Shown here piece after piece: positions 3,812 to 20,671 of a stretch of DNA of 58,792 nt. Source of the DNA: Acidimicrobiia bacterium (GTDB lineage: Bacteria; Acidobacteriota; Terriglobia; Bryobacterales; Bryobacteraceae); assembly GCA_016871315.1 (NCBI GenBank), contig VFZE01000035.1:1-58792 (forward strand). The letters are read 5' to 3'. Position 1 is the stretch's first letter; each line of letters opens with the position of its first letter. The position numbers and the translations under genes are program-made. The notes below the pieces were generated by a model. It saw only the letters and a program-made list of their open reading frames with translations. It made no database searches and had not been told where the DNA came from.

Positions 3812-3990
3812 TTCGACGGCTCCGGATGGACAGCCTGCACATAGGAGGGCTCGGTCTCCAGAGGAATGCGCGCCACCAGCGGCCGGAACTGCGCCTCCAG
3901 CCCCTCCATTGGTTTCACCACTCCGTCGAGTTTCTCCGGCGGAATATCGGGGGCCAGCACGGCGGCCAATGCTTTAAAGTCCTTCTGCAT
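3808..3990 (-). CDS. Small GatC/AtzG-like amidase partner
   Basis: About 60 residues with the look of AtzG/GatC-type small subunits: a helix (FKALAAVLAPDIPPEKLDG), a second helix (MEGLEAQFRPLVARIP), then an extended tail with ETEPSYVQA, comparable to the EPxxxF/H tail of GatC-like proteins. In AtzEG and GatCA the tail wraps round the amidase. The gene overlaps the amidase start by 4 bases. The frame stays open to a GTG at 4008, but TACAAT at 4000-4005 reads as a -10, making the ATG at 3990 the likelier, near-leaderless start. The call rests on pattern and context; direct similarity was not tested. Confidence 0.55.
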   Translation of the reverse strand: MQKDFKALAAVLAPDIPPEKLDGVVKPMEGLEAQFRPLVARIPLETEPSYVQAVHPEPSK

Positions 3991-4041
3991 AGTAATGGCA
4001 TTGTACACGCCCGGCGGATAGGTTCTGGAGGTAGACTATGG

Positions 4042-5223
4042 ATGGATCTTATGGCCACCGTCACCGCGGCAACGGGAACCACCGGCCCGCTTACGCACCT
4101 GAATGAAGAAGAGCGCATGTTTGCTAATGCAGTGCGCCAGTTCGCGCGTGAGCAGATTGCCCCGCATGTACGCGAGATGGACGAGCAGGCGCAGTTCCGT
4201 CCCGGCATTCTGAAACAGCTGTTCGAACTGGGGCTGATGGGCATCGAGATTCCGGAAGAATACGATGGTCAGGGCGGCACATTCTTTCAGGCGGTGCTGG
4301 CGATTGAGGAACTGGCGGCAGTGGATCCCACGGCGGCGGTGATCATCGATGTGCAGAACACGCTGGTTAACAATGCCATGTTGCGCTGGGGCAACGAAGA
4401 TCAGAAGAGCCGCTACCTGCCGAAGCTGGCCACGGAGATGGTCTCCTGCTACGCTCTCTCGGAGGCCGGCTCCGGTTCCGATGCCTTCGCGTTGCAGACG
4501 CGAGCCGAGGAGACCGGCGATAACTACCTTCTCAACGGCCGCAAACTCTGGATCACCAACGCGAAAGAGGCGGGGTTGTTTCTCGTCTTCGCTAACGCGA
4601 ATCCCGAGGCCGGCTACAAGGGCATCACCTGCTTTCTGGTTGAGCGGGAGTTTCCCGGCTTCCAGGTGGGGCGTAAGGAGGACAAGCTCGGCATCCGCGC
4701 TTCCTCCACCTGCGAGCTGATTCTGGATAACTGCCGAGTACCGAAATCGAACGTCCTTGGCGAAGTGGGCAAGGGCTACAAGATCGCCATCGAGACGCTG
4801 AACGAAGGCCGGATCGCCATCGGCGGGCAGATGATCGGGCTGGCGCGCGGCGCGCTGGATCATGCCCTCGCCTACGCCAAGCAGCGAAAGCAGTTCGGCA
4901 AGCCGATCGCCGAGTTCCAGGCGGTGCAGATTGAACTCGCCGAAATGGCGACGGAGTTGGAAGCGGCGCGGCTGCTTGTCTACAACGCCGCGCGCCTCAA
5001 GGAAGCCGGCCTGCCCTTCTTGAAAGAAGCGGCGATGGCCAAGCTGTTCAGCTCGCAGGTCGCGGAAACCATCGCCAGCCGGGCGGTGGAAATCTTCGGC
5101 GGCGCCGGCTTCACCAAAGAATACCCGGTGGAGAAGTTGTATCGCGACGCAAAGATCGGGAGAATCTATGAGGGGACGTCGAACATGCAGCGTCTCACGA
5201 TCGCCAAGCAGCTGCTTGGGTAA
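4042..5223 (+). CDS. Acyl-CoA dehydrogenase
   Basis: A 393-residue FAD-dependent acyl-CoA dehydrogenase of the short/branched-chain group. It has the N-terminal helical domain, the flavin strand motif CYALSEAGSGSDAFA, WITNAKEAG, and the C-terminal FGGAGFTKEYPVEKLYRDAKIGR. The Glu in IYEGTSNMQ is the usual catalytic base. It oxidises an acyl-CoA to the 2-enoyl-CoA and passes electrons to ETF. The ATG at 4042 sits about ten bases after GGAGGT. A second in-frame ATG follows at 4051, and the frame upstream is antisense to the amidase. Chain-length preference cannot be read by eye. Confidence 0.88.
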   Translation: MDLMATVTAATGTTGPLTHLNEEERMFANAVRQFAREQIAPHVREMDEQAQFRPGILKQLFELGLMGIEIPEEYDGQGGTFFQAVLAIEELAAVDPTAAVIIDVQNTLVNNAMLRWGNEDQKSRYLPKLATEMVSCYALSEAGSGSDAFALQTRAEETGDNYLLNGRKLWITNAKEAGLFLVFANANPEAGYKGITCFLVEREFPGFQVGRKEDKLGIRASSTCELILDNCRVPKSNVLGEVGKGYKIAIETLNEGRIAIGGQMIGLARGALDHALAYAKQRKQFGKPIAEFQAVQIELAEMATELEAARLLVYNAARLKEAGLPFLKEAAMAKLFSSQVAETIASRAVEIFGGAGFTKEYPVEKLYRDAKIGRIYEGTSNMQRLTIAKQLLG

Positions 5224-6149: not shown

Positions 6150-7190
6150 ATGGCGACCACCAGGGTCAGACTGCGCCGGCGTTGGGCCGCCACGACAAGG
6201 CGGGTGCGCGAACTGCGCATGATCGCCAAGGGACTCCTCCACAAGGACCACCCCGTCCTGGCTCACATCATCCCCATCCGCCGCTGCAATCTCAGCTGCA
6301 CCTACTGCAACGAATTCGACGATTTCTCCAAGCCCGTGCCGCTGGAAACCATGCTTGAGCGCGTCGATCAACTGGGGCGCCTGGGCACCACCGTCATCAC
6401 CATCAGCGGCGGTGAACCACTGATGCATCCGGACCTGGACCTGATCATCCGCCGCATGCGCCGCAACGGCATCATCGCCGGGCTCATCACCAACGGGTAT
6501 CTGCTCACCAAGGAGCGCATCGAGCGGCTGAACGAGGCCGGGCTCGATCACCTCCAAATCTCCATCGACAACGTCAACCCGGACGATGTCTCGAAGAAGA
6601 GCCTGAAGGTGCTCGACAAGAAACTGCAACTGCTGGCCGAATACGCCACCTTCCACGTCAACATCAATTCCGTGGTCGGGGGCGGCACGCACTATCCGGA
6701 AGACGCGCTGAAGATCAGCCATCGCGCGCTGGAGCTTGGCTTCACCTCCACCGTCGGCATCATTCACGACGGCACCGGACAGCTCCGGCCTCTCGGCCCG
6801 AAGGAACGCGAAGTCTACAAGGCCATCAAGAGCCTGGAAAAATCCAGCTACGCGCAGATCAATCATTTCCAGGAAGCGATCGCCGACGGCAGGCCGAACA
6901 ACTGGCGCTGCCGCGCCGGCGCCCGCTACCTCTACATCTGCGAAGACGGTCTCGTGCACTACTGCTCCCAGCAGCGCGGCTATCCGGCAAAGCCGCTCGG
7001 CGAATATGGTCTCGCCGACATCCGCCGCGAGTATTCCACCGCCAAGCGCTGCGCGCCCAACTGCACCGTCAGCTGCGTGCACCAGGTGTCGATGATCGAT
7101 TTCTGGCGTGATCCACAAACGCTGGTGACCGATCCTCAGGCGATGCCGGTGGGCGGAGAGCTGGTCCATATCGAAACCGGACGGCGCTGA
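6150..7190 (+). CDS. Radical SAM enzyme with C-terminal Cys cluster (SPASM-like)
   Basis: A 346-residue radical SAM protein. The cluster motif is C46-NLS-C50-TY-C53, followed by TVITISGGEPLMHPD (SAM-binding GGE) and GLITNGYLL. The C-terminal part has further cysteines (CRAG, YICEDG, HYCSQQ, CAPNCTVSC), as in SPASM or twitch domains holding an auxiliary Fe-S cluster. The N-terminus is very basic (RVRLRRRW). Such enzymes modify peptides, lipids or sugars; the substrate here is unknown. The methyltransferase gene follows after 5 bases, so the two probably act together. Confidence 0.8.
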   Translation: MATTRVRLRRRWAATTRRVRELRMIAKGLLHKDHPVLAHIIPIRRCNLSCTYCNEFDDFSKPVPLETMLERVDQLGRLGTTVITISGGEPLMHPDLDLIIRRMRRNGIIAGLITNGYLLTKERIERLNEAGLDHLQISIDNVNPDDVSKKSLKVLDKKLQLLAEYATFHVNINSVVGGGTHYPEDALKISHRALELGFTSTVGIIHDGTGQLRPLGPKEREVYKAIKSLEKSSYAQINHFQEAIADGRPNNWRCRAGARYLYICEDGLVHYCSQQRGYPAKPLGEYGLADIRREYSTAKRCAPNCTVSCVHQVSMIDFWRDPQTLVTDPQAMPVGGELVHIETGRR

Positions 7191-7195
7191 GGCGA

Positions 7196-7963
7196 GTGTC
7201 GGAGTCCGGCTCAAGCCTGTCCTGGTATCTTGATCCGCTGGTTGCCGCGCAAAAACGATCCGAGCATCAGAAGCTGATCCGCGATTGGGCTGGCGAGTCC
7301 TTCTCCGGTCATGTTCTCAAGACCGATCTGTTTGAAGAGGCCTACGGCTCCGACAGAATCCTGTTTGATCTGTTTGCCAGCGCCAGCCGCGTCACCGGCA
7401 TCGACATTGAATTCTCCACCGTTCAGAAGGCAATGGTCAATTGTCCGTTGCCGTCGGCGCGGTTCCTCACCACGGATCTGAGGCAGTTCGCGATTCAGTC
7501 CGCCAGCGTGGATCTTATCGTCTCCAATTCCACGCTCGACCATTTCGAAACGCGCGCGGAGTTCGAAGCGGCAGTGGCGCAGATCGCCGGCGTCCTCCGC
7601 CCCGGCGGGCTGCTGATCATCACGATGGATAATCCGTGGAATCCCCTGTACCATTTGCTGCGCTGGAGCTGCCGCCTCCGCCGTTGGCCCTTCGCCCTCG
7701 GCTACACCACTTCCGCGCCTCAACTCCGCCAGTCACTGGAGCGCGCCGGTCTGCGCGTCGAAGCCACTGCAGAGCTGATCCACAACCCGCGTCTGGTCTC
7801 GACCGTGCTGTTCCTTGCGCTTCGAAAACTGCTGGGCCGGTACGCCGACGCTCCGGTCCGCCTGCTGTTAGCGCTGTTTGCTTTGCTGGGCAGACTGCCT
7901 ACGCGCTCCTTCACCGCCTGCTTTGTCGCCGCCGCCGCCAGAAGACCGGCCGGCCGGGAATGA
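7196..7963 (+). CDS. Class I SAM-dependent methyltransferase
   Basis: A 255-residue methyltransferase of the Methyltransf_11 type. VTGIDIEFSTVQKA corresponds to the SAM-binding acidic loop, SVDLIVSNSTLDHF to motif IV, and GVLRPGGLLIITMDNP to the post-motif strand. A hydrophobic C-terminal stretch (RLLLALFALLGRLP) may touch the membrane. The start is GTG, 5 bases after the radical SAM gene, which points to one operon. The last 96 bases overlap the convergent Mur-ligase-like gene. Substrate unknown; a lipid or cell-envelope acceptor would fit the neighbours. Confidence 0.78.
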   Translation: MSESGSSLSWYLDPLVAAQKRSEHQKLIRDWAGESFSGHVLKTDLFEEAYGSDRILFDLFASASRVTGIDIEFSTVQKAMVNCPLPSARFLTTDLRQFAIQSASVDLIVSNSTLDHFETRAEFEAAVAQIAGVLRPGGLLIITMDNPWNPLYHLLRWSCRLRRWPFALGYTTSAPQLRQSLERAGLRVEATAELIHNPRLVSTVLFLALRKLLGRYADAPVRLLLALFALLGRLPTRSFTACFVAAAARRPAGRE

Positions 7964-9190
7964 GATTCCCGCGGCAGGAACAAACCCCAGTTCCTCGCAG
8001 GAGTCGCACGATGGTCTGCGGCATACCTGCTTCCTGCAGGCGACTTCGCCGAATTGCGCATAAAAGATACGCGTCAGGTGTTCCCCGGCTTGCCCCTTCA
8101 GCAAAACCAGGTCTCCGGGACCGAGTTCTGATTTCAGAAACTCGGAGGCTTCCGGAAGCTCGGCGAAGTGACGCACGCAATCGGGCGCCATTCCGTGCCG
8201 GATGGCGGCGCGCACGGCGTGTGCTCCGTAGACCGAAACGAACACCGCGAAATCGGCCCCTTCCGCCACGCGCCTTCCCAGGTCCTCCTGTCTCGGAACA
8301 GGATCGGCCAGACCGGTGTCCCAGGTGTCGCCGGCCACAACGACACGCCGGCGAACATCCGCGTCCCGCAACAGCTTCATCGCCGCCGGGATCGTGCTCA
8401 CCGATCCATGCGTTTCATCGCGCAACAGCACGGCCCCGGAGGGAAGCACAACAGGCTCCATGCGCGCGCGGAACGGCTGAACAGACTCCATTGCTTCGGC
8501 GGCCGCCGCCAGCGGCACTCCGCAATTGACCGCCGTGGCGATAGCGCCGAGCACCGTTGCCACCCACTGCACCCCCACGAAGTTCGTATTCACCCACGCC
8601 GATTCCCCCGCCGCATGTACGCTGAATTGCAGCCGCGAGGGCCAGCGCGCGGAAATCTCATCCGCACGGAAGTCGTTCCCGGCCTCCAGCCCGAAAGTAA
8701 CCACGCGGCAGTTGCACCGCTCCGCCATCGCCCGCACCCATGGGTCATCGCCGTTGAGAACGGCCAGACCGTTACTCGTCAAGCGACGCAGCAACTGCGC
8801 TTTTTCATGGGCGACATCGGCCAGCGTCGGATGGTGATTGCTGTGCGCCTTGTCGACTTTCAGGATCACCGCGATGTCGGGATTGAGCTGCCAGCTCGCT
8901 CGCCACAATGCGCCTCGCCTTCGCGTGCCAACTTCAATCACCGTATAACGATGTTGCGGACGCGTCCGAAGCAGTGTCAAGGCAATGCCGCGGCGCGTAT
9001 TATCGGCATTTCGCATTGCGTTCACCGCGAAGTGACGATCCAGTATCGCAATCAGGCTTTGCGTGCAGGTTGTCTTGCCAAAGCTGCCCGTGATGGCGAT
9101 CACACGCGTCCTGAAGATCAGCCGCCGCCAGAGAAAGCTCAATGCCGTGAGGGCATACGCGGCGCCGGCGTCTAGATAACGATGGACCAA
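7868..9190 (-). CDS. Mur-ligase-family ATP-dependent ligase (MurF-like, not cell-wall MurF)
   Basis: A 440-residue protein with the Mur ligase P-loop AITGSFGKTTCTQSL and the central pattern YTVIEVGTRRRG and VDKAHSNHH. It has GLAVLNGDDPWV, and a C-terminal domain with VVVAGDTWDTG and GDLVLLKGQAGEHL. It should couple ATP hydrolysis to an amide bond, but no wall-synthesis neighbours are present. It ends with an unusual cysteine segment, CRKQVCRRPSCDSC, then a low-complexity Gly/Arg/Gln tail that lies wholly antisense to the convergent methyltransferase gene. The tail looks like extension past a lost stop. The start is a TTG after TAGAAT and AAAGG, so the exact N-terminus is uncertain. Confidence 0.72.
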   Translation of the reverse strand: MVHRYLDAGAAYALTALSFLWRRLIFRTRVIAITGSFGKTTCTQSLIAILDRHFAVNAMRNADNTRRGIALTLLRTRPQHRYTVIEVGTRRRGALWRASWQLNPDIAVILKVDKAHSNHHPTLADVAHEKAQLLRRLTSNGLAVLNGDDPWVRAMAERCNCRVVTFGLEAGNDFRADEISARWPSRLQFSVHAAGESAWVNTNFVGVQWVATVLGAIATAVNCGVPLAAAAEAMESVQPFRARMEPVVLPSGAVLLRDETHGSVSTIPAAMKLLRDADVRRRVVVAGDTWDTGLADPVPRQEDLGRRVAEGADFAVFVSVYGAHAVRAAIRHGMAPDCVRHFAELPEASEFLKSELGPGDLVLLKGQAGEHLTRIFYAQFGEVACRKQVCRRPSCDSCEELGFVPAAGISFPAGRSSGGGGDKAGGEGARRQSAQQSKQR

Positions 9191-9234: not shown

Positions 9235-10703
9235 CTACTTCGGCTGGGCGTTCCCACCCACCAGATGGAGCGACAACACCTTGCCGGTCGAGGTACGGAA
9301 TGGCTCGGCGATGATCACTTCGACCGCTTCTGCGTGGCGCCAGACGCTGGAGGCCAAGCTGCCGCCATAGTAGGATCGGATTTCACGAAGGAAGGCTTCC
9401 CGCAACGCTTCCCTCGAGGTGGAGGCTGCGCGCGCTCACCCGCAGCATCAGCTGCGTTTGCCCGGCTCCTTCATATTCCACCGGTTGGTAATCTCCCGGG
9501 CTCCCGCCAAACAACGCCGGCATCTTTTCCTCCAGCAAACGCACGACATCGGTGCCCGTCAGTGTCATGCCCTGCCCGGTCAGTTTGCCGTAGCTGTGGA
9601 TGCCGTGAATCGTCTGCTGGAGGCCGATCTTCGAATAAGTGCAATCGCAGCCGGCCTCCCCGATGACGCCGTGGTCATCCATTTCCACGTTGATCAAAAA
9701 GTACGGCGCCACGGGAAGCAGCGTGGTGAAAAAAAACGAAGAAACCGGGGCCGATGGGTCCAACCTCGGCGATGCCGTAATGCGCAAACACCTCCGCGCC
9801 CGCCGCTTCAATCACCGCCCGCTTGCTGTCGGTCAGCGCCTCGCCGACGACTCGAAACAGAGTGCCGCCGATGTCCAGCTTGTTCTCCATGGCCGCCGCC
9901 GCAACACGCACCGCCGGACTCAGGAACGCGGAGAACAGGCATCGCCGGCCCTCACGCTTGAGGCGGGCCAAATGCGTTGCCACCGGCAAGAAATCGTTGG
10001 GCGGAAGATAGACGGGGAAAGGCATGGGCAGGCCCGCCAGCCTGACAGCCGCCACCATGAACCCCGTCGCCATCCGGTAGTGCAGGGAATCCTGCCCGCC
10101 GCCCATCGCATACCAGGCTTCCAAACGCCTCCCCTGGCGGAGTGTGCGCAGCGCCGGCAAAAGGCCGGAGGCGGACGGCAGAATCGGTTTCAGGTCCAGC
10201 CGGCATTGACCCTCCAGTCCGAACTCGGCCGCTGTCAGATCCTCGTAAGCCTCTCTGTGCGTCTCGAACGCCATGTTCAAAGGCGTCCGTGTTCCCTTGC
10301 TGCGGCTGCCGCTGCTCGAGTGATCCATGACACCTTCCACGAGCGGATTGAGAAAATCTTCCGGCTGCGCCTCGATCCGGAGGCCGGAGCGCACAATTGG
10401 CTGCTTGCCCTTGAACTCATCATGGGCGAGATAGACTCCGGCGCAATGAAGACCGGCAAGTGCGGCTTCCAATCCGTCGCGATGCACCGATTCCGCCAGG
10501 TCTTCATAGCTGCAACCGGCAAGCTGGAACATCGCGTGGTAGGGATGGCGGGTATTGCGGAACACGATGCGCCGCGCGAAGTCTAGAAACCGCGCCTCGC
10601 GCCGGGGAAGATTTTCTCGCAGACGACTGACAGGATCGGCGGCGCACGGCATGCGGGCCAAACAGGCCAGGCCCATCGCATTTTCGTTTACCTTGCAGCC
10701 TCG
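9235..10703 (-). pseudogene. Broken paralogue of the PaaK-like adenylating enzyme
   Basis: Its product is recognisably the same family as the intact gene at 16.1-17.7 kb. Shared blocks include RHPYHAMFQLAGCSYEDLA, the PPNDFLPVA segment, LSPAVRVAAAA, GEALTDSKRA.IE and EVGPIG, then in another frame FFFTTLLP, MDDHGV, SYGKLTGQGMTLTGT, and in a third frame YYGGSLASSVWRH with a LSLHLVG tail. About 31 residues between EVGPIG and FFFTTLLP are missing, next to a run of eight A's (+ strand) where the frame shifts. A second shift lies near 9420. The N-terminal homology continues upstream of the first Met to about 10703. The gene cannot make a full product. Confidence 0.85.
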
Positions 10704-11263: not shown

Positions 11264-14200
11264 TCAGAATCTATACTTCAGCGCGAGCTGGACCTGCCGC
11301 GCCGGGGTGGTGCTCTGTGTGATCCGGCCGGCGGTTCCCAACACATCACCGCGGTTGTTAAACAGCGCGGTTCCGGAAGGGATCTGAAGATTCGGGTGAT
11401 TGGTTAGATTAAAGGCTTCCAGCCGTAAACGGAGGGCTTGTCTGTCGTTGCCCCACAGTTGTTTGTGCACGGCCAGATCCAGCCCCGCCAGGTCCGGGCC
11501 TGTCAGTGTATGTCTGCCGAGAGTCCCGTGAAATCCTGCGGCCGGAAGAGCGAAAGCCCGGGGATCGAAATACCGCGCCGGATCGCCAAGGATCACCCGC
11601 TGCCCAGATGAGCCGGCCCAATCCGGACGCTGGCCGAAATCGTCGGAGCTGTGACTGATCCGCGCCTGGTCAAAGCCGACCCGCGGATTGAAGGGATGCC
11701 CGGTTTGCAGGGTCAGCAGGGAATGGATCTCCCATCCGGCAAGGAAGCGGCCGCCTCTGCCGCGCCAGGCAGGCAGGGCGTAGGAGTAGTTGAGGGCAAA
11801 GGAATGCCGCAAGTCGAAACTGGAAAGACCGCGGTTGAGCCGGAAATCGAAGATCGTCGGCACTCTGTCGGTGTTGAGGAATTCCGAAAAAACGGCGACG
11901 GAGGTTTCATCGATGGATTTCGCCCAGGCGTAGCGGCCCTGCATGCGAAAACCCCGGCGCCATTTCCGCTCCACGCCCAGCAGAAGCGAATGGTAGAAGG
12001 AATTGAACTCCATGCGGCGGATGCCTATCTGGTCAAACGCGGGGTTCAGGCGCGGCATGTTGGCAGGGAAGAACCATCGGCCATCGGGGAGCCGTTGCGG
12101 AGCGCTTGGATTGACGTTGCCAAGTTGGCCGGCCAGATGGAGGCCACGCGAGCCCGCATAGCCCAAGTGCACAACAAGGTCGGAACCGAACTGCCGTTCC
12201 AGTGATGCTTGAAACTGGAATAAGCGCGGCTGGTTGGGAGCGTAATCGAGCCCGTCCACCGCGGGGACCGGCGCCGTCGTGCTGGCGGCCGCCAGTAGAT
12301 TCGGAAACTGCGGACGAGCCGGGAACAGGCGCTCAAAGAAAGGCGGGACGCGCACGCCGGCGACCATCAGCTCGCGCGTGCTGATGAGGTCGAAGAAAAC
12401 ACCCGCGCCAGCCCGGAACACCGTCTTGCCGGAAGAAAAAGGGTCCCACGCAAGGGCGGCGCGGGGCGCGAAGTTCTTGCGCGAAGGATTCAGGAACAGC
12501 GGCCCGCCGGTGGTGACCCGCGTGTCGCGATCCGGCCTGGGCAGTGTCGCGACTTTGCCATTGACCTCCGAGGGCGGCGAATAGCTCTCGTAGCGCATTC
12601 CGAGCGACAGACTGAATTGCCGGGACACTTTCCAGTCCTCCTGCAGGAACGCGAAGAACTGGTGCTGCCGCCAGCCCCGGACGCTGTCGGAACCGGGTTT
12701 CATCAGATCCCCTGCGCGCGGCTGGGCCGTGAGAAGGTCGGCCACCGAGTCAAAGCGATACAGGCCGATGGCGTTGAGGTCGGCCCGCTGGTTGAAGCGG
12801 ATGCGATCGTACCCGGTTCCGAAACGCAGCGCATGAGGGCCGTGGATCCAGGCGGCGTCGTGCTGGAATTGGAAGTCGTCGACAGTATTGTGCCGTGGCC
12901 GCAGACGCGCCCGCAGCCCTCCGATATCGTCGAGCCCGGTGACCTGGATCACGCCAAGAAGTTGGCCTGGAATGAAGGACAGCGATGCCGGAATGGCATT
13001 CACCAGGCGCCCCGTCTCGGTGTTGCGGACCCGGCTGAATCCGGCCCGGAAAGTATGCAGCTGATTGGGCGAAGCCGTCCATTGCGCTTCCGTGTGCAGG
13101 AACTGGTAGCGCGAGTCGTGAATGAAATCCCAGATGCGGAAGGCTTCCGGCGCAGTGTTGAAGCCGTCATCAATGGTGTAGCGCGCGCCGATGCGCAGAA
13201 ACGGAGCGGCGATCCAGTCCAGCCTTCCGGTAGCATAGTCTTCCCGCGTTTGACTGGTCAGCTCGGTGATGAATTCTCCGGTTCCGTCGCCGAAGTCTCG
13301 TCCGTTGGGCCGGGGGTAAAGCTCCAGATAGGGAAGCACGGAGCGGGCGACCGGAACGGTCCGCACCCCCCCGGAGCCCGGCAGACGCCCCGCTCTGGCG
13401 TCGTCGCTCAGCGTGGAGGGCCGTTCGGTGCGGCCGGCCGATTCCCGGATGCCTTCATAGTTGGCGAGGAAGAAGAGTTTGTCGCGGCGCAGAGGCCCGC
13501 TTAGCAGTCCGCCGAATTGATTCCGGCGCAGTGGAGGAATCGGCTGGGAGTGCGGGTCAAAGAAGTTTTTTGCGTCCAGGGAACTGTTGCGGGCGAATTC
13601 ATAGGCGCTGCCATGGTGTTGGTTGCCGCCCGATCGGGACACGGCTGTCATCACCGCGCCCGCCGCGCGGCCGTACTCGGCGCTGAACGGGCTGGTGACA
13701 AGCCTAAGCTCGCTGATGCTCTCCAGACCCAGCAAGCGCCCGGCGGCGCTGGCGGGCGCTCCGCCGGCGGCGTCATTGATGTAAATGCCGTCGATGCGGA
13801 ATCCGTTCTGGTTTGGCCTTGCGCCGTTCACCGACAACGCGCTTCCGCTGCCCGTGGTGATCGACCGCGTTGCGGTGGCAGGCATTGTGGCCCCGGGCTG
13901 CTGCACGGCGAGATCGAAAAGATCGCGCCCGTTGAGCGGAAGTTCCTCCAAGCCACGGCGGGAAATCGAGCCGCCCCAATCCGCCGCACTTGCATTGACG
14001 AGTGGAGGATCGGAACTCACCACGATCCGCTCGGAGGTCGGACCCATGGCCATACGGAAGTCCACTCGCACCACTCTGCCGGCACGGATTTCGACATCCT
14101 GGCGCACTTCCGTTTTTAGCCCTGGATGCCGCACCTCAATCTCATAAACCGAAGGAGGGAGCCGCAGAGCCAGATACCGGCCCAGTGAGTCAGCCGCCAG

Positions 14201-14362
14201 CTTCCGCTCCGCCCGCGTGCTCACGTCCCGGATGCGGACTTCGGCGGCCGGCACAGGTTGTCCGGACGGATCGGCGATGATCCCTTCCACGGCTCCAGCC
14301 GTCTGCGCACACAACGGGCCCGCGAACAGAACCGGCAGCAACGCGGCGAAACTCCTCCTCAA
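11264..14362 (-). CDS. Oar-like TonB-dependent outer-membrane receptor
   Basis: About 1032 residues. After a signal peptide (FAALLPVLFAGPLCAQ) comes a carboxypeptidase-regulatory-like beta-sandwich (AGAVEGIIADPSGQPVPAAEVRI). A TonB plug follows (LEELPLNGRDLFDLAVQQPG, GFRIDGIYINDAAGG, ISELRLVTSPFSAEYGRAAG). Next is a long beta-barrel with repeats such as RHSFALNYSYALP and a terminal Phe (KYRF) typical of BAM substrates. It should import a bulky ligand across the outer membrane. I place the start at TTG 14362, one base past the permease stop and 6 bases after GGAGGA, so it is the last gene of the ABC/PaaK-like operon. A longer frame to 14413 would overlap the permease. Confidence 0.85.
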   Translation of the reverse strand: MRRSFAALLPVLFAGPLCAQTAGAVEGIIADPSGQPVPAAEVRIRDVSTRAERKLAADSLGRYLALRLPPSVYEIEVRHPGLKTEVRQDVEIRAGRVVRVDFRMAMGPTSERIVVSSDPPLVNASAADWGGSISRRGLEELPLNGRDLFDLAVQQPGATMPATATRSITTGSGSALSVNGARPNQNGFRIDGIYINDAAGGAPASAAGRLLGLESISELRLVTSPFSAEYGRAAGAVMTAVSRSGGNQHHGSAYEFARNSSLDAKNFFDPHSQPIPPLRRNQFGGLLSGPLRRDKLFFLANYEGIRESAGRTERPSTLSDDARAGRLPGSGGVRTVPVARSVLPYLELYPRPNGRDFGDGTGEFITELTSQTREDYATGRLDWIAAPFLRIGARYTIDDGFNTAPEAFRIWDFIHDSRYQFLHTEAQWTASPNQLHTFRAGFSRVRNTETGRLVNAIPASLSFIPGQLLGVIQVTGLDDIGGLRARLRPRHNTVDDFQFQHDAAWIHGPHALRFGTGYDRIRFNQRADLNAIGLYRFDSVADLLTAQPRAGDLMKPGSDSVRGWRQHQFFAFLQEDWKVSRQFSLSLGMRYESYSPPSEVNGKVATLPRPDRDTRVTTGGPLFLNPSRKNFAPRAALAWDPFSSGKTVFRAGAGVFFDLISTRELMVAGVRVPPFFERLFPARPQFPNLLAAASTTAPVPAVDGLDYAPNQPRLFQFQASLERQFGSDLVVHLGYAGSRGLHLAGQLGNVNPSAPQRLPDGRWFFPANMPRLNPAFDQIGIRRMEFNSFYHSLLLGVERKWRRGFRMQGRYAWAKSIDETSVAVFSEFLNTDRVPTIFDFRLNRGLSSFDLRHSFALNYSYALPAWRGRGGRFLAGWEIHSLLTLQTGHPFNPRVGFDQARISHSSDDFGQRPDWAGSSGQRVILGDPARYFDPRAFALPAAGFHGTLGRHTLTGPDLAGLDLAVHKQLWGNDRQALRLRLEAFNLTNHPNLQIPSGTALFNNRGDVLGTAGRITQSTTPARQVQLALKYRF

Positions 14363-14363
14363 C

Positions 14364-15116
14364 CTAATTCCTCCAGGGAACGAGCTTAAGCTCGATCCGC
14401 CGCATGACGGCATGCAGAATCGCGCCCAGCGCCGCGGTGAGAATCACCCCGATATAGAGCTTCTCCGTGGCGAAGGTCTGCCAGGACATCAGGATCATGC
14501 TGCCCAGTCCGTCCGGGGCGTTGATCAGCTCAATCGAGATCGTTACCACCAGCGCCCGGCCCGCGGCCAGCCGTAGCCCGGTGAACAGTTGCGGCATGCA
14601 TGCCGGCAGAAACACTTTCCGTAAAATCATCCATCGTCCCGCACCGTGATGCGATGCCAGCTCCACCCAGGAGCGATCGACTCCACGGATACCATCCAGC
14701 GCATGAAAGGCGACAAGAACGAACGCCGCCGCCGCCACCAGCAGAAGCCGCGAACTCTCGCCGACCCCGGCAAGCAGCATCACCATCGGCAGCAGGCTGA
14801 GCTTCGGCGCGGAGTACAAGGCCGACAATGACGGTTCCAGCGAGCGCCCTACGCGCCGCGACGCGCCCATCAGCGCGCCAAGGAGCAATCCGGCCACCGC
14901 GCCGCAAAAAAATCCAATCCCCATGCGGGTAACGGTGGCGCCGGCCTGCCTTCCCAGTTCCCCGGTGCCAGTCAGCCTCCATGCCGAAGCGGCCAGCCTG
15001 CTGGGAGCAGGAAAGAACAGTGGATCGAGAATCCCGAAACCGGAGCAGACCTCCCATCCCGTTACAGTTAGCAAAGGCAGCCAGAGACCCAGGGCAACTT
15101 GCTTGCTCATTTTCAT
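14364..15116 (-). CDS. ABC transporter permease (SsuC/TauC-like)
   Basis: A 250-residue membrane protein with about six hydrophobic segments. The binding-protein-dependent permease motif is SWVELASHHGAGRWMILRKVFLPACMP, the EAA loop that contacts the ATPase. The family is the NitT/TauT type, importing nitrate, sulfonates, aromatic acids or pyrimidine precursors. Its ATG overlaps the stop of the binding-protein gene (ATGA) and its stop is one base from the TonB receptor start. It should form the inner-membrane channel with the ATPase encoded at 17.7-18.4 kb. Confidence 0.85.
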   Translation of the reverse strand: MKMSKQVALGLWLPLLTVTGWEVCSGFGILDPLFFPAPSRLAASAWRLTGTGELGRQAGATVTRMGIGFFCGAVAGLLLGALMGASRRVGRSLEPSLSALYSAPKLSLLPMVMLLAGVGESSRLLLVAAAAFVLVAFHALDGIRGVDRSWVELASHHGAGRWMILRKVFLPACMPQLFTGLRLAAGRALVVTISIELINAPDGLGSMILMSWQTFATEKLYIGVILTAALGAILHAVMRRIELKLVPWRN

Positions 15117-16120
15117 AGCGTTCCCCGGGGCGCAGCGCCGGCCCACGCGCCAGCAGGTAGAAAGCGCCGGTCGATGAGCCGCTTCAGATCCACCGCCTGC
15201 GGGCAGAATCCCTTCTCCACGCTCCAGTTGATGAATCTCTGCAAACTGGTTTCATCGATGGCGCCATCCGGGGAGAATGTGGTTCTGCATGCTTCGCGCG
15301 TGTGTTTTGGATCCAAATTGTTGGACAGGGCGAAATCGTCCATGAATTTCGGCGTTGCCCCATTCTGAAAAGCTTCGGCAGCCCGGTGGTAGGCGGTAAG
15401 AAACGCGGTCCCGCGGCGTGGGTCACCGTCCAGGAGCGCGCTGCCGAACATGATGTGGGAATACTGAAATCCTGGCAGCACCCGGATTGCTCCTTTGACG
15501 GCAATGACACGCGGGTCGCCGCGGGCCGGATCCTTGTCGAAGTGGCCGTCGCTCAGCGTGGCGTCGATACGGCCCCCAAGCAGGGCGGCCAGCGCCTCCG
15601 CTCTTCTCAACAGGACAACTTCCACGTCCGTTGTTCTGAGACCGGCGTGGCGAAGGATCTCGTCGAGGAAGAATGCCGAAACTGTTGTCTTATGGGTGAT
15701 CGCGAGTTTCTTGCCTCGCAGTTGTTCGAAGCCGGCGAGCCCGTTGGGAAAAGCCTCCCTTCTGGTGTAGATGTCGCCCACCGTTCCGCAATCAGGAGTG
15801 AGCCTCTCTCGTCCAGCCACAACGGCGACACGCGCGCCACGCAAGACGGCGTTGAAGAGAGCGGGACCCGGCGAAAAGAAGGCCACGTCAAGTTTCCCGC
15901 CGGCTAGCAGCGGTATGGCTTCCGTGGAGTTGGGGCTCGCTACCAGATCCACGCCCAATCCCGCCTCGCGGAAATAGCCGCGCTCCCAGCCAAGATGCAG
16001 GCTGCTCATGCTGAGATATGGCGCCACCCCAACGCGGATCAACTGCTCATCCTCTTCCTTCCAGCGTGAGCAGCCGGCCGCCGTTACGGCCAGGACCGTA
16101 AGAGCTTTTCTACGAAGCAT
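15113..16120 (-). CDS. Periplasmic substrate-binding lipoprotein (NMT1/SsuA-like)
   Basis: 335 residues. The N-terminus MLRRKALTVLAVTAAGC carries a lipobox with Cys17. The body is a type II periplasmic binding fold of the NMT1/THI5/SsuA group: IRVGVAPYLSMSSLHLGWERGYF, EAIPLLAGGKLDVAFFSPGPAL, LRGKKLAITHKTTVSAFFLDEIL, EALAALLGGRIDATLSDG. It delivers substrate to the neighbouring permease. Its start overlaps the end of the PaaK-like gene by 11 bases. The group includes sulfonate, nitrate, aromatic-acid and thiamine-precursor binders, and the sequence alone does not choose among them. Confidence 0.85.
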   Translation of the reverse strand: MLRRKALTVLAVTAAGCSRWKEEDEQLIRVGVAPYLSMSSLHLGWERGYFREAGLGVDLVASPNSTEAIPLLAGGKLDVAFFSPGPALFNAVLRGARVAVVAGRERLTPDCGTVGDIYTRREAFPNGLAGFEQLRGKKLAITHKTTVSAFFLDEILRHAGLRTTDVEVVLLRRAEALAALLGGRIDATLSDGHFDKDPARGDPRVIAVKGAIRVLPGFQYSHIMFGSALLDGDPRRGTAFLTAYHRAAEAFQNGATPKFMDDFALSNNLDPKHTREACRTTFSPDGAIDETSLQRFINWSVEKGFCPQAVDLKRLIDRRFLPAGAWAGAAPRGTL

Positions 16121-17699
16121 GCTGGAAAGAAGCCTCCATGCCCACCAGATGCAGGGAAAGAACCTTGCCGTTGGAGGTCATGAACGGCTCTCCGATCTCC
16201 ACCTGAATGGCTCCCGAGTGCCGCCACACGCGCGATGCAAGGCTGCCGCCGTAGTGGGACCGCAGCTCGGTCAGAAAGAACTCCCTCACCGCATCGGCCG
16301 ATACAGGCCCGGCCCGCGGACTGATCCGCAGCGTAAGCTGCGTCTGTCCTCCGGCTTCATGCTCCACCAGTTGATAGTCGCCGGCACATCCTCCGAACCG
16401 CGCGGGGAGCCTTTGCTCCAGCAGTGCGACAATCCCGGTTCCGGCCAGCGTCATCCCCTGGCCGGTAAGTTTGCCGTAGCTGTAGATGCCATCGATGGTT
16501 GTCGTGAATCCGATGCGGGAGAACTGGCAATTGCAGCGTGCCCGGCCAAGCACGCCGTGATCGTCCATGCAGGCGTTGATGAGGATGCGCGGGTTGCACG
16601 GCAGCAGCGTGGTGAACAACAGGGCGTTGACCTTGGAGCCGGAAAGCGGCGCGGGACGGCTGTCGGCGATCACGGCGACCGAATCCTGGAACAGATGCAC
16701 GCGGTTGCCCACCCTCATCTGCCCGCAGGCATGGCCGATGGGGCCAACCTCGTGAATCCAGTAGTTGGGGAAAACCGAGGCGCCGCTGCTTTCGATCTCC
16801 GCGCGCTTGGCCTCCGTCAGCGCTTCTCCACCGACGCGGAACACCGCGCCGCGGATGTCCCATGCCTTCTCCTTCGCCGCCGCCGCGACACGCACCGCGG
16901 GGCTGACAAAGGTGGTAAGCAGGCACCGGTTGCCCTCCGCGCGGAGTTGCGCCAAAAACCGCGCCACCGGTGAAAAGTCGTTCTTGGGGAGATACTCCGG
17001 AAACCTCGCTCCGGCGCCCGCCAGATTGGCCAAAGCCACCATCAGATGCGTCGCCGCCCGATAGTGGCCCGAGTCCTTCATCCCGCCGCTCACCGTGAAC
17101 CACCGTTCGAGCCTTTGTCCCAGCCGGCGCGCACGCAGCCCCGCCGAGATTCCGATCGACGACGGAAGAATGGAAGCCAAGTGAACCCGGACATGGTCCT
17201 GCAGCGAGAGTTCCCGTGTAACGAGCACTTCATACATTTCGCGGTGCAGTTGAACGGCCACGCTGGTCCGCGTCCTTGTCCCCGCGCTCCTGCTCCCGCC
17301 GCTGCGGCCCTCCCACAGTCCCTTCTCCAGCGGATTCAGGAAACTCGCCGGGCTGGCCGGGATATGCCGTCCCGATCGCACGATCCCCGTCGTGCCCTTC
17401 ATCTCGTCATGGGTGAGATAGACGCCGGCGCGATTGACCGCCGCCAGCGCCCCCTCCAGACCCTCCTTGCGGACCATGCCGGCGAAATCCTCCAACGTGC
17501 AGCCCGCCAGCCGGAACATTTCCTGATAAGGATGCCCAGGCGAGGCGAATACGGTCCTCCGCAGCGTGTCCAGAAAAGTGCTCTCGCGGTTCTCCCACTG
17601 GCGGCGCAGCCGGCCCGGGGGATCGTCAAGCGGCTTGCTGCGCGCGATCTGCATCGCGCCCAACGCCATGCGCCCATAGTAGCCGGCTTCAAACAGCAT
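16110..17699 (-). CDS. PaaK-like/F390-synthetase-like adenylate-forming enzyme
   Basis: 529 residues of the phenylacetate-CoA ligase-like branch of adenylating enzymes. SGGSRSAGTRTRTSVA corresponds to the phosphate-binding Ser/Gly/Thr loop. VGGEALTEAKRAEIE and FPNYWIHEVGPIGHAC correspond to the GGE and YG.TE.G motifs, though Tyr-Gly-Met is replaced by Tyr-Trp-Ile. A C-terminal lid domain ends with TSNGKVLSLHLVG. It would activate a carboxylate with ATP and perhaps transfer it to CoA. The ATG at 17699 overlaps the ATPase gene by 11 bases; earlier in-frame codons are antisense shadow of that gene. Being inside an ABC operon suggests it activates the imported substrate. A broken and a fragmentary paralogue lie at 9.2-11.3 kb. 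Confidence 0.75.
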   Translation of the reverse strand: MLFEAGYYGRMALGAMQIARSKPLDDPPGRLRRQWENRESTFLDTLRRTVFASPGHPYQEMFRLAGCTLEDFAGMVRKEGLEGALAAVNRAGVYLTHDEMKGTTGIVRSGRHIPASPASFLNPLEKGLWEGRSGGSRSAGTRTRTSVAVQLHREMYEVLVTRELSLQDHVRVHLASILPSSIGISAGLRARRLGQRLERWFTVSGGMKDSGHYRAATHLMVALANLAGAGARFPEYLPKNDFSPVARFLAQLRAEGNRCLLTTFVSPAVRVAAAAKEKAWDIRGAVFRVGGEALTEAKRAEIESSGASVFPNYWIHEVGPIGHACGQMRVGNRVHLFQDSVAVIADSRPAPLSGSKVNALLFTTLLPCNPRILINACMDDHGVLGRARCNCQFSRIGFTTTIDGIYSYGKLTGQGMTLAGTGIVALLEQRLPARFGGCAGDYQLVEHEAGGQTQLTLRISPRAGPVSADAVREFFLTELRSHYGGSLASRVWRHSGAIQVEIGEPFMTSNGKVLSLHLVGMEASFQHAS

Positions 17700-18453
17700 G
17701 CGCCACGTCCCTGGTTTCCATTCCCAGCAGCCTCCAGATGTCGCGCTTGATCTGGATGAACTCGGGATCGACCGTTGTTTCCTGCGTGCGTGGCCTGGAA
17801 AAGCCCACCCCAAACTCCCCGATCACCGTGCCGGGCTGCGCACTCAGCACCAGGACGCGGTCGCTCATCAGAATCGCCTCCTCCACGTCATGAGTGACAA
17901 ACACGACCGACTTCGGCGCCTCCTGCCACAACGCCAGCAGTTCCTGTTGCAGGCTGGCGCGGCTTTGCGCGTCCAGCGCGGCGAACGGCTCGTCCATCAG
18001 CATCAGTTCGGGATTGCTGAGGAAGCACCGGCACAGCGCCACCCGCTGCTTCATGCCCAGCGAAAGCTCATGTGGGTAGGCTCGTTCCCGGCCCGTCACT
18101 CCGAACTTGGCCAGAAGGGCCAGCGCCCGCGCTTCGCGTTCGGCTTTGCCGAAACCCTCCATCTCCAGTCCGAATGCAGCATTTTCCAGCACCGTCATCC
18201 ATGGGAACAAGCTGTTTTCCTGGCGCACCATGCGCACGCATTCGCCATCGCCCCCGATCCGCTCCACCTCTCCGTCGGACGGCTTCAGCAGTCCGGCCAG
18301 GATCCGCAGCAGCGTCGTCTTGCCGCACCCGCTAGGCCCGACGATACTGAGAAACTCGCGCTCGCGTGTTCGCAGGTTGAGTTGACGGAGAGCCAGCACA
18401 CGTCCGCCATTGGATTCGAACCCTGCTCCCAACCCGGTGCACGAGAGCCTCAC
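17689..18453 (-). CDS. ABC transporter ATP-binding protein (SsuB/TauB-like)
   Basis: A 254-residue ATPase. Walker A is GPSGCGKTT and the Q-loop region is VRQENSLFPWMTVLENA. The signature is LSLGMKQRVALCRCF (Leu in place of the usual first Gly). Walker B is LMLMDEPFAALD and the switch His is in VFVTHDVEEA. It powers the permease encoded at 14.4-15.1 kb. It is the first gene of the operon: GTG start at 18453, a strong GGGAGGAGG just before it, and GATAAT further up. It is divergent from the fused spermidine-synthase-like gene. Confidence 0.9.
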   Translation of the reverse strand: MRLSCTGLGAGFESNGGRVLALRQLNLRTREREFLSIVGPSGCGKTTLLRILAGLLKPSDGEVERIGGDGECVRMVRQENSLFPWMTVLENAAFGLEMEGFGKAEREARALALLAKFGVTGRERAYPHELSLGMKQRVALCRCFLSNPELMLMDEPFAALDAQSRASLQQELLALWQEAPKSVVFVTHDVEEAILMSDRVLVLSAQPGTVIGEFGVGFSRPRTQETTVDPEFIQIKRDIWRLLGMETRDVAHAV

Positions 18454-18475: not shown

Positions 18476-18600
18476 TTGTCCCGTCAATGAGTGAGCCATT
18501 ATGACATAGTAGGAGGACCGTGCAGGTTCCCTCGCTCCCCCCGCTGCCGCCGTGCCTCCGGCGGGTGGAATGGCCTTTTACTTCTCCCTCGCCTTCCTTG

Positions 18601-18609
18601 TGCTAATTT
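18601..18609 (+). promoter_or_regulatory. Extended -10 (TGC TAATTT) giving a near-leaderless start
   Basis: TG at 18601-18602, then one base, then TAATTT at 18604-18609. The expected transcription start is about 18616, next to the ATG at 18617. It supports that ATG over earlier in-frame starts. Confidence 0.45.
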
Positions 18610-18616
18610 GGGCGGG

Positions 18617-20671
18617 ATGCTGCTCTATGCGCTGACCATTTTCCTAAGCGCATTTCTTCTCTTTCAAGTGCAGCCGATGATCGCCAAGGCAATCCTGCCG
18701 TGGTTCGGCGGCTCGGCGGCTGTCTGGACCACCTGCATGCTGTTCTTCCAGGTGGATCTGCTGCTCGGCTATGGCTACGCTCATTTCGTCATCAGAAGAC
18801 TCACCCCGAGGGCGCAGGCGGTCTTGCATTCCGCGCTGCTCACCGGCTGCATGCTGCTGCTACCTGTCCTGCCGGGTCCGCATTGGAAGCCGGGTGGAGA
18901 AGAGAATCCGACCATTCTGATTCTTGTGCTCCTGTCCGCTACCATCGGGCTTCCTTATCTGCTGTTGTCCACCACCACGCCGCTGCTTCAGGCCTGGTAC
19001 GCGCGCAGCGAGCGATCGGCGATGCCCTACCGGCTGTTCGCGCTATCGAATCTCGGCTCGATGCTGGCGCTGCTGAGTTATCCGCCATTAGTGGAACCGT
19101 ATCTGCCCACTCGCATGCAGGGCTGGATCTGGTCCGGCGCTTTTGTGGCATTCGCCGGCCTCTGCGGATTCGCCGCGCTGCGCAGTTCGCGCTTCCCTTC
19201 CCTGGCGCAGCAGGAGCAATCCTCCGCCTCGCAGGAGACCGAAACTGCGGCACCATCGCTATGGACAAAGCTGTTCTGGGTGTGCCTGGCCGCCTGCCCG
19301 TCCATCCTGATGCTAGCCGTCACCAACCACCTCACACAAGACGTCGCCTCCATCCCGTTCCTGTGGATCCTGCCTCTCAGCATCTACCTGCTCAGCTTCA
19401 TCCTCACCTTCGACGCCCGCGGCTGGTATGTCCGCAATCTCTTCCTTGCCTTGATGGCGCCCGCCTTGGGTGGCATGGCATACATGCAGTGGAGCGATTC
19501 CAAGGCCATCGACATGAAGCTCTCCATCGGGCTGTTCTGCCTGGCGCTGTTCGTCGCCTGCATGGTTTGCCACGGGGAACTGGCGCGGCGCAAACCGGCG
19601 CCCCGCCACCTGACCATTTTCTATCTGATGCTCTCGGCGGGAGGCGCCCTCGGCGGCTTCTTCGTCGGCATTGTCGCGCCGTACCTGTTTATCTCCAACT
19701 TTGAACTGCCCGTCGGCATCGCCATCTGCGGAGTGCTCTGCTGGATGATCGCTATTGAGGAGCCCGGCGTAAGTTTTGCCCGCGCCTCGATCTCGCTTAG
19801 CTCCATCGCCCTGCTGTTGGGGGTCTTCGGCCTTAGCCTCTTTCTCGGCCGCACGATGCTCGACGCGGTGAAAGATTACAAAGTAGCGCGCCGCAATTTC
19901 TATGGCACACTCCGCGTCAAGGAATCCGGCGGCCCCGGTGATTGGGACGGCTACCGCAGCCTGCTCCACGGATCCATCAATCACGGCGAACAGTGGACGC
20001 ACCCGGAACGGCGCCGCGACGCGATCACCTATTACTGCCCGGAAAGCGGCGTCGGCAAGGTCATGCGCAGGCATCGCGTCACCCGTCCCCGCACCGTCGG
20101 CGTGCTTGGGCTGGGCTCGGGCACGATGGCCTCCTTTGGCCGCCCACAAGACACCTTCCGCTTTTATGAGATCAACCCGCTAGTTCCGGTGCTGGCCAGG
20201 ACGGAATTCACTTTTCTCCCCGATTGCCGCGCCGAAAAAGTAGACGTAGTGATGGGCGACGGCAGGCTCTCTCTGGAAAGAGAGCCTCCGGGCACCTACG
20301 ACATTCTCATGATGGACGCGTTTTCCGGTGACTCCATCCCGGTGCACCTGGTCACGCGCGAAGCCTTCGGTCTCTATTTCCGCCTGCTCAAGCCCGATGG
20401 CGTGCTGGTCGTCCACATTTCCAACAAGTACCTGGATCTGGAACCCGTCATCGGCCGCGCCATGGTGGAGATGAAGAAGGCCGCCTTCGTCGTGGAATCC
20501 GATGAGGACGACCTGGGCGTCTGCTTTGGCACCACCTACGTGCTCATCGCCAATGACATGGACACTCTCGAGCGCGCCTCGCTCACCGAATCTGGACGCA
20601 GCCCCAAGCTCGACCAAAAAGTAGCCGCCTGGACCGACGACTACTCCAATATGTTCCGTATCCTGAAATAG
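18617..20671 (+). CDS. Fused membrane/spermidine-synthase-like protein
   Basis: 684 residues in two parts. The first roughly 430 are membrane-spanning (LLYALTIFLSAFLLFQVQPMIAKAILPWFGG onward, with a conserved WTTCMLFFQ and GLPYLLLSTTTPLLQ). The rest is a spermidine-synthase-like Rossmann domain: VGVLGLGSGTMASFG, FRFYEINPLV, VVMGDGRLSLE, DILMMDAFSGDSIPVHL. Family members of this fused type are widespread, but their reaction is not established. An aminopropyl- or methyl-type transfer near the membrane is plausible. A shard of a second copy lies at 10.82-10.90 kb. It is divergent from the ABC operon, and the next gene follows after 14 bases. Confidence 0.8.
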   Translation: MLLYALTIFLSAFLLFQVQPMIAKAILPWFGGSAAVWTTCMLFFQVDLLLGYGYAHFVIRRLTPRAQAVLHSALLTGCMLLLPVLPGPHWKPGGEENPTILILVLLSATIGLPYLLLSTTTPLLQAWYARSERSAMPYRLFALSNLGSMLALLSYPPLVEPYLPTRMQGWIWSGAFVAFAGLCGFAALRSSRFPSLAQQEQSSASQETETAAPSLWTKLFWVCLAACPSILMLAVTNHLTQDVASIPFLWILPLSIYLLSFILTFDARGWYVRNLFLALMAPALGGMAYMQWSDSKAIDMKLSIGLFCLALFVACMVCHGELARRKPAPRHLTIFYLMLSAGGALGGFFVGIVAPYLFISNFELPVGIAICGVLCWMIAIEEPGVSFARASISLSSIALLLGVFGLSLFLGRTMLDAVKDYKVARRNFYGTLRVKESGGPGDWDGYRSLLHGSINHGEQWTHPERRRDAITYYCPESGVGKVMRRHRVTRPRTVGVLGLGSGTMASFGRPQDTFRFYEINPLVPVLARTEFTFLPDCRAEKVDVVMGDGRLSLEREPPGTYDILMMDAFSGDSIPVHLVTREAFGLYFRLLKPDGVLVVHISNKYLDLEPVIGRAMVEMKKAAFVVESDEDDLGVCFGTTYVLIANDMDTLERASLTESGRSPKLDQKVAAWTDDYSNMFRILK

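Follow-up and report, generated by a model that had tools for sequence, protein, structure and literature searches.

The 58,792-nucleotide stretch analysed here (contig VFZE01000035.1 of assembly GCA_016871315.1, placed by GTDB in the Bryobacteraceae of the Acidobacteriota), which we call the window, carries five minus-strand genes (18453-11264) that encode, in order of transcription, an ATP-binding cassette (ABC) transporter ATPase, a PaaK-like enzyme, an NMT1-type lipoprotein, a permease and an Oar-like TonB-dependent receptor (TBDR). This cassette is a real recurring unit and not a one-genome oddity, and it very probably constitutes a functional unit. As to what it does, we lean toward a role in which an organic acid is captured, imported and activated. 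The five genes are as follows.

17689..18453, minus strand: NitT/TauT-like ABC transporter ATPase, 254 residues, GTG start (ABC_tran PF00005, 2.8e-29).
16110..17699, minus strand: PaaK-like adenylate-forming enzyme (putative), 529 residues (the family profile matches PDB chains of the PaaK type; motifs line up with those of E. coli PaaK).
15113..16120, minus strand: NMT1/SsuA-like substrate-binding lipoprotein (substrate-binding protein, SBP), 335 residues (NMT1 PF09084, 3.7e-14).
14364..15116, minus strand: NitT/TauT-like ABC permease, 250 residues (BPD_transp_1 PF00528, 2.9e-20).
11264..14362, minus strand: Oar-like TonB-dependent receptor, 1032 residues, TTG start (OMP_b-brl_4 PF25183, 5.7e-149; CarboxypepD_reg, 2.2e-15; Plug, 1.1e-5).

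The ATPase and PaaK-like genes overlap by 11 bases (ATGCTGTTTGA), as do the PaaK-like and SBP genes (ATGCTTCGTAG); the SBP and permease genes share the 4 bases ATGA, and a 1-base gap separates the permease gene from that of the receptor, whose TTG start has GGAGG just 5' of it. An alternative receptor start, the ATG at 14413, would produce a 50-base overlap with the permease gene. Gene set, coordinates, strand, order and junctions are all as claimed in a preliminary description of this DNA, and the spacing suggests that translation is coupled across the junctions. A lipobox-like TAAGC, read by eye, ends the N-terminus of the SBP. Since an NMT1/SsuA-type SBP, a BPD permease and an ATPase are encoded together, the transporter genes were classed as a NitT/TauT-type importer, and the receptor combines the CarboxypepD_reg, Plug and beta-barrel domains (Pfam) of the Oar-like architecture. 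NitT/TauT systems transport small anions and heterocycles. Among NCBIfam models the SBP matched SsuA_fam (3.1e-21), the permease matched SsuC and TauC models, and the ATPase had SaoA and a taurine ATPase as its top matches, in every case below the cut-off. Because none of the ABC proteins passed an equivalog cut-off for a named substrate (for the ATPase, among the best 25 of 205 families), no substrate can be named for this importer.

We collected 66 loci of the PaaK-like family from 42 genomes and annotated their neighbours with 42 tblastn queries. Each locus was placed in an importer class by hand on the basis of the tblastn matches, with part of the loci checked by Pfam; at 18 of the 66 loci the flank is shorter than 3 kb on one or both sides. 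The enzyme family was present in 29 of 200 genomes of the window's own family, and loci from 25 of these 29 positive genomes (G000 included) were analysed, the four omitted genomes being G798, G818, G931 and G950. Four additional copies, G889:C111, G889:C97, G879:C63 and G923:C38, were also set aside. Across the phylum it was found in 11 of 297 sampled genomes with a single sequence as query and in 13 of 396 with a profile, and in 5 of 193 and 3 of 38 genomes of the classes of G245 and G274, respectively, these within-phylum samples overlapping one another. One contig scan returned a single relative of the enzyme, in a metagenome-assembled genome (MAG) of the Planctomycetota, and the family occurred in 2 of 246 genomes sampled from the phylum of that MAG, the MAG included. 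Some genomes hold multiple copies, with seven matches in G821. Plasmid carriage was considered and dropped after a plasmid search gave no match.

Importers accompany the enzyme in several unrelated forms. NitT/TauT ABC genes are found at 25 of the 66 loci, a tripartite tricarboxylate transporter (TTT) at 4, an Nramp-like protein at 10 and an NMT1-like protein at 2, leaving 25 with no importer in view. The ABC loci are spread over 22 genomes, and 20 of the 25 have SBP, permease and ATPase all in view (part of the genes is in view at L010, L125, L129, L133 and L138); the random partial combinations that the preliminary description had set against its own proposal were thus not seen. Seven of these loci (the window, L027, L111, L116, L122, L131 and L149) share the window's exact gene order, and in the remainder the order is shuffled or a gene is lacking. 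At L130 the permease gene and the nearest full ATPase match lie on the other strand, and L118 and L128 have two permeases each. The five-gene order, which had been proposed as something to look for in other Acidobacteriota, therefore recurs; in G274, which has only the phylum in common with the window's genome, both 11-base overlaps recur with it. Recurrence in distant genomes rules out chance adjacency of the five genes. The TTT genes were recognised by Pfam at L066 (TctC 8.1e-16, TctA 4.9e-118, TctB 3.4e-8), at L112 (TctA 1.3e-119, TctC 3.4e-20) and, at a contig end, at L088 (TctC 1.7e-9), and by tblastn evidence only at L110. Carboxylates are described as the most common cargo of TTT and of tripartite ATP-independent periplasmic (TRAP) systems (PMC5812351, in excerpt), and a TTT in the place of the ABC importer at 4 loci thus fits an imported acid that becomes activated.

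The receptor follows the importer closely. A same-strand TBDR is encoded at 30 of the 39 importer loci (19 of 25 ABC, 3 of 4 TTT and 8 of 10 Nramp-like) versus none of the 27 others; at one of these, L115, a TBDR lies on the other strand, 2.2 kb away. When the count was restricted to loci flanked by 3 kb or more on both sides, the linkage was 27 of 31 versus 0 of 17 (Fisher p 1.4e-9, which, the loci being related, is not a calibrated probability). These counts also bear on an alternative in which the Oar-like protein would act in secretion or surface assembly, exporting as Oar does for PopC, while the ABC genes would serve a separate purpose. The layout of CarboxypepD_reg, plug and barrel fits such a role; however, the receptor pairs with SBP-dependent importers of two unrelated types, and none of the 27 loci without an importer has a same-strand TBDR, the one at L115 just mentioned being on the other strand. 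We consider this explanation very unlikely.

The window receptor was searched in eight genomes. In G274 the enzyme-linked receptor was the top match at 1249.6 bits, with the next at 211.5 among 14 matches there, and in G339 it was again the top match at 538.9 bits, followed by 340.6 among 36 matches. A tree was then built from 30 linked receptors and 19 unlinked ones, the latter mostly the best matches to the window receptor in G000, G245, G274 and G339. This was a quick tree with Shimodaira-Hasegawa-like approximate likelihood ratio test (SH-aLRT) support only, the mixture model off and long-branch warnings, and among its rows L133 fills 22% of the columns and L149 is a fragment. Twenty-nine of the 30 linked receptors fall in one starred clade; the exceptions are the very divergent linked receptor of G017, which falls outside it, and the unlinked G000:C10 receptor, which falls inside. 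Within the clade, 3 TTT-linked, 8 Nramp-linked, 16 ABC-linked and 2 two-permease ABC-linked receptors form starred groups of their own. The receptor thus looks dedicated, as the preliminary description had it, in that a TBDR subclade appears to track the enzyme. The simplest reading is an ancestral pair of receptor and enzyme whose inner-membrane importer would have been replaced more than once. As a separate observation, the unlinked receptor within the clade (L081, 8973-14007) lies in divergent orientation beside a sodium:solute symporter gene, which may be a further case of pairing with an importer.

The Nramp-like loci (L119, L120, L123, L124, L134, L136, L137, L139, L144 and L034) deserve separate treatment. 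The gene lies directly 3' of the PaaK-like gene in nine of the ten, and at L137 it lies 3.1 kb upstream, before the receptor gene; five of the ten proteins (L034, L119, L123, L136 and L144) were checked by Pfam. TonB receptors classically transport metal chelates. An enzyme that builds a secreted small molecule, such as a metal chelator, from an internal acid, with the receptor and importer returning it loaded, would be in keeping with the presence of Nramp-like importers at 10 of 66 loci, with the multidrug/oligosaccharidyl-lipid/polysaccharide (MOP) flippases and methyltransferases that adjoin several loci, and with the biosynthetic role of NatL2, a PaaK-family ester former (PMC7204872, in excerpt). 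When eight of the Nramp-like proteins were aligned with E. coli MntH, however, GPQD, GPSD, GPTD or GPGS replaced DPGN and MPH was absent in all eight. In the SLC11 family the alpha-1 aspartate is universally conserved and the methionine is a soft metal ligand (PMC8806188, in excerpt), and since the motifs are lost here, metal transport by these proteins is unlikely; they may represent a non-metal branch of the family. Moreover, the ABC genes are NitT/TauT-like, and among annotated neighbours a nonribosomal peptide synthetase (NRPS) was recognised only beside the importer-less locus L031, no targeted search having been made. We therefore judge manufacture, export and recapture to be unlikely. 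Metal uptake as a common theme of the loci was likewise weakened by the eight compared proteins without the metal motif.

The PaaK-like protein of the window has no Pfam match, and scanning 15 family members singly in Pfam gave nothing meaningful, only one stray match in one member (Ribosomal_S11, 0.027). No NCBIfam model scored above its cut-off for the window enzyme, the only match being BagE_FevW, whose 19 bits compare with a cut-off of 800. A profile built from 15 relatives, in contrast, matched solved structures in the PDB: phenylacetate-CoA ligase 9s3l (1.9e-9), two PaaK-like ligase chains of 6siw (3.7e-9), which we take to be NatL2, 4r1l (4.6e-9) and AjiA1 6wuq (8.8e-9). These matches span roughly 115-140 positions; matches to two more chains (0.44 and 0.6) are attributable to chance. 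Against E. coli PaaK alone, hhalign gave an E value of 6.6e-5 over 182 columns with a probability of 63.9%. The Gly-rich loop, Y313, C325, H335, C389, C391 and K512 are invariant or nearly so in the 15-row alignment, and the acidic residue after Y313 is mostly E, with D in some members. A global alignment places the loop opposite SSGTTGK of PaaK, the acidic residue opposite the PaaK Glu and the terminal GK opposite EGK. These alignments make the enzyme a diverged relative of PaaK whose adenylation site is plausible. They also sharpen the comparison with phenylacetate, benzoate and F390 enzymes suggested in the preliminary description: phenylacetate-CoA ligases, AjiA1 and 6siw are among its best solved relatives, so the product need not be a thioester of coenzyme A (CoA). 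NatL2 itself is a PaaK-family enzyme that takes its adenylate to an ester instead of a thioester (PMC7204872, in excerpt).

We propose that the cassette would operate in the following way. A scarce organic acid, or a conjugate carrying one, would cross the outer membrane through the Oar-like receptor and be delivered to the cytosol by the lipoprotein together with the NitT/TauT-type ABC importer; the PaaK-like enzyme would then spend ATP to make an acyl-adenylate, from which the acyl group would pass to CoA or directly to an acceptor. At the sister loci a TTT or Nramp-like transporter would serve the same kind of receptor and enzyme, making the inner-membrane step exchangeable. An organic acid is the common denominator because an enzyme resembling carboxylate activators sits beside such importers. 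Importer exchange, the direction of import and the acid nature of the ligand are all points that we infer, and we think it reasonably probable that the imported compound is the enzyme's substrate.

As the fate of the acyl group we favour conjugation over breakdown: it would end up in an ester or amide linkage to a glycan or some other acceptor, although this is the weak step of the scheme and is put forward tentatively. MOP flippases lie beside importer loci in G274, G245, G017, G309 and G339 and beside an importer-less locus in G719. Glycosyltransferases were identified by Pfam near L033, L041, L066, L071, L132, L141 and L142 (the one at L071 some 12 kb away from the enzyme), polysaccharide deacetylases near L066 and L071, and methyltransferases near several family loci; the glycosyltransferase, flippase and methyltransferase tallies are raw counts without a base-rate control. 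At L140, directly after the receptor gene, a single open frame of 565 residues (2463-4160) combines a glycosyltransferase 2 domain with an ABC permease domain. The glycosyltransferase, methyltransferase and flippase neighbours of family members make glycan conjugation plausible. The most specific version, an Acidobacteriota cassette in which an environmental acid, scavenged through a dedicated receptor and any of three unrelated importers, is attached to a glycan or surface acceptor by a new adenylate-forming family, seems to us rather unlikely; if true, it would mean cell-surface decoration built from scavenged parts.

The same neighbours are relevant to a more ordinary possibility, a catabolic ligase that forms aryl- or acyl-CoA and is accompanied by its uptake system, in which the imported acid would be converted to a CoA ester and degraded. 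Homology to PaaK speaks for it, as does the precedent of a TBDR gene near transporter and catabolic genes for the lignin-derived dimer acid DDVA (PMC6874591, in excerpt), and an acyl-CoA dehydrogenase-like gene is present in the window at 3721-5223. That gene, however, is on the opposite strand and 6 kb from the operon; no other degradative CoA-pathway gene was recognised among the annotated window flanks, where no targeted search was made; and glycosyltransferases or flippases accompany a number of the homologues. Degradation of this kind is, in our assessment, improbable.

Several observations weigh against capture, import and activation as the function of the cassette. In an enzyme tree of 65 rows (L072, too short, was omitted; quick tree, SH-aLRT support only) the Nramp label changed once (at a support of only 74), TTT twice, ABC 9 times, importer presence 9 times and TBDR presence 13 times. 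All importer classes taken jointly required 12 changes versus 31.6 in shuffles, and one clade of 13 enzyme copies has no importer at all. With its 9 changes, the importer label is clustered on the tree. An independent-pairs comparison of importer and TBDR yielded 6 supported pairs, of which about 3 agreed and 0 opposed (median p 0.25); with only 6 pairs the test is underpowered and leaves statistical room for linkage by descent alone. The shuffled order and the variety of importers argue more strongly for the linkage than the pairs test does, since gene content that is kept while order is shuffled points to functional partnership rather than mere block inheritance. Four of the 31 well-flanked importer loci (L033, L034, L134 and L141) have no same-strand TBDR. 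Twenty-five of the 66 loci have no importer in view, which means that the enzyme can work without one, and the importer-less G274 copies L028 and L029 are close to the window's enzyme (49-50% identity). Several of the importer-less loci have glycosyltransferase or methyltransferase neighbours, so the enzyme family is not tied to transport, which counts against the simplest version of the scheme. The preliminary proposal of uptake through both membranes followed by carboxylate activation on entry is therefore upheld in part: the five genes form a recurring set, the receptor looks dedicated and the TTT at 4 loci fits an imported acid, but the 25 importer-less loci speak against its simplest version.

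Further points on the same side concern the individual proteins. Relatives of Nramp carry mostly metals. The A8-like segment of the enzyme is of the type KLTGQGMTL (KLT..G) where PaaK has RSDDMLIIRG, and an AlphaFold2 model made from few input sequences reached a mean predicted local distance difference test (pLDDT) score of only 43.9; with an altered segment and a failed structure prediction, activity of the enzyme is not assured. A search of the window's genome with the G274 flippase as query found no flippase. Finally, Oar-type receptors can serve secretion, Oar being needed for secretion of PopC (PMC6434023, in excerpt), so import by the window receptor is something that we infer.

Like SsuABC and TauABC, which are among the best NCBIfam matches, the window importer has an NMT1/SsuA-like SBP, one permease and one ATPase; unlike them, it scores below the equivalog cut-offs and its genes are shuffled around a ligase and a TonB receptor. 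The enzyme shares with the PaaK branch (PaaK, AjiA1, NatL2) a profile match at E of about 1e-9, the Gly-rich loop, Y..E/D, C..H..C.C and the terminal GK, but it is 92 residues longer than E. coli PaaK, has no fitting Pfam or NCBIfam model and carries the altered A8-like segment. The nearest published idea is DdvT, an aromatic acid dimer receptor: in the DdvT-DdvK system for a lignin dimer acid in Sphingobium SYK-6 a TonB receptor gene likewise lies near an inner-membrane transporter and the enzymes that act on the compound, whereas the transporter is of the major facilitator superfamily (MFS), the catabolic genes are of the oxygenase type, and no adenylating enzyme appears in the excerpted source (PMC6874591). 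The TTT (PMC5812351, in excerpt) substitutes for the ABC importer at 4 sister loci but is absent from the window operon. Oar of Myxococcus has the same CarboxypepD_reg, plug and barrel architecture, but it lies with a Ton system and serves PopC secretion, whereas the window receptor lies with importer genes (excerpt of PMC6434023). A combination of PaaK-like enzyme, TonB receptor and importer was not described among the matches listed from the open literature. Known, then, is the grouping of a TonB receptor, an inner-membrane importer and a first enzyme; what is new in this variant is the poorly catalogued enzyme family and the apparently exchangeable importer.

TonB receptors are very numerous in the window's genome, where one query gave 121 matches (segments, not genes), and to our knowledge no ligand has been assigned to most such receptors. 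A receptor subclade tied to an SBP and an enzyme that can be purified and screened makes the ligand of the whole receptor clade testable. The occurrence of three unrelated importers with related receptor and enzyme pairs is also an unusual natural experiment on the nature of the transported molecule, and the cassette brings into view an enzyme family without a fitting Pfam model.

Three further minus- and plus-strand features lie just beyond the operon.

9256..10680, minus strand: broken second PaaK-like copy just downstream of the operon (tblastn, three pieces, 54-68% identity).
7868..9190, minus strand: MurF-like ligase beside the broken copy, a flanking gene and possible member of the cassette (Mur_ligase_M 1.1e-29; TIGR01143 murF 2.5e-59, below cut-off).
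7196..7963, plus strand: S-adenosylmethionine (SAM) methyltransferase, a flanking gene (Methyltransf_11 1.5e-12).

The broken copy (10680-9256), which the preliminary description had missed, lacks one stretch and has two frame changes; another genome has two open PaaK-like frames in tandem (L124). Homologues of the MurF-like ligase occur at L126 and L078, and homologues of the methyltransferase near the cassette or the enzyme at L027, L116, L112, L126, L145 and L036. A radical SAM gene (6150-7190) and the methyltransferase gene are on the strand opposite to the operon and convergent with it. The former was dropped as a module member because, of the 11 genomes searched, only G000 itself and G156 had a relative at E 1e-20; weaker matches lie near the enzyme at L078 and L119. 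On the other side of the operon, a divergent neighbour (18491-20671) is akin to fused MFS/spermidine synthase proteins and gives no sign of belonging to the cassette. Elsewhere in the sample, L036 (7908-8771) and L078 (8465-8770, truncated) encode an NMT1-like protein with no visible signal peptide ahead of the PaaK-like gene, possibly a cytosolic carrier or enzyme. At L031 (2500-10234) the PaaK-like gene is convergent with that of a 2041-residue protein that has NRPS and malate/lactate dehydrogenase-like domains.

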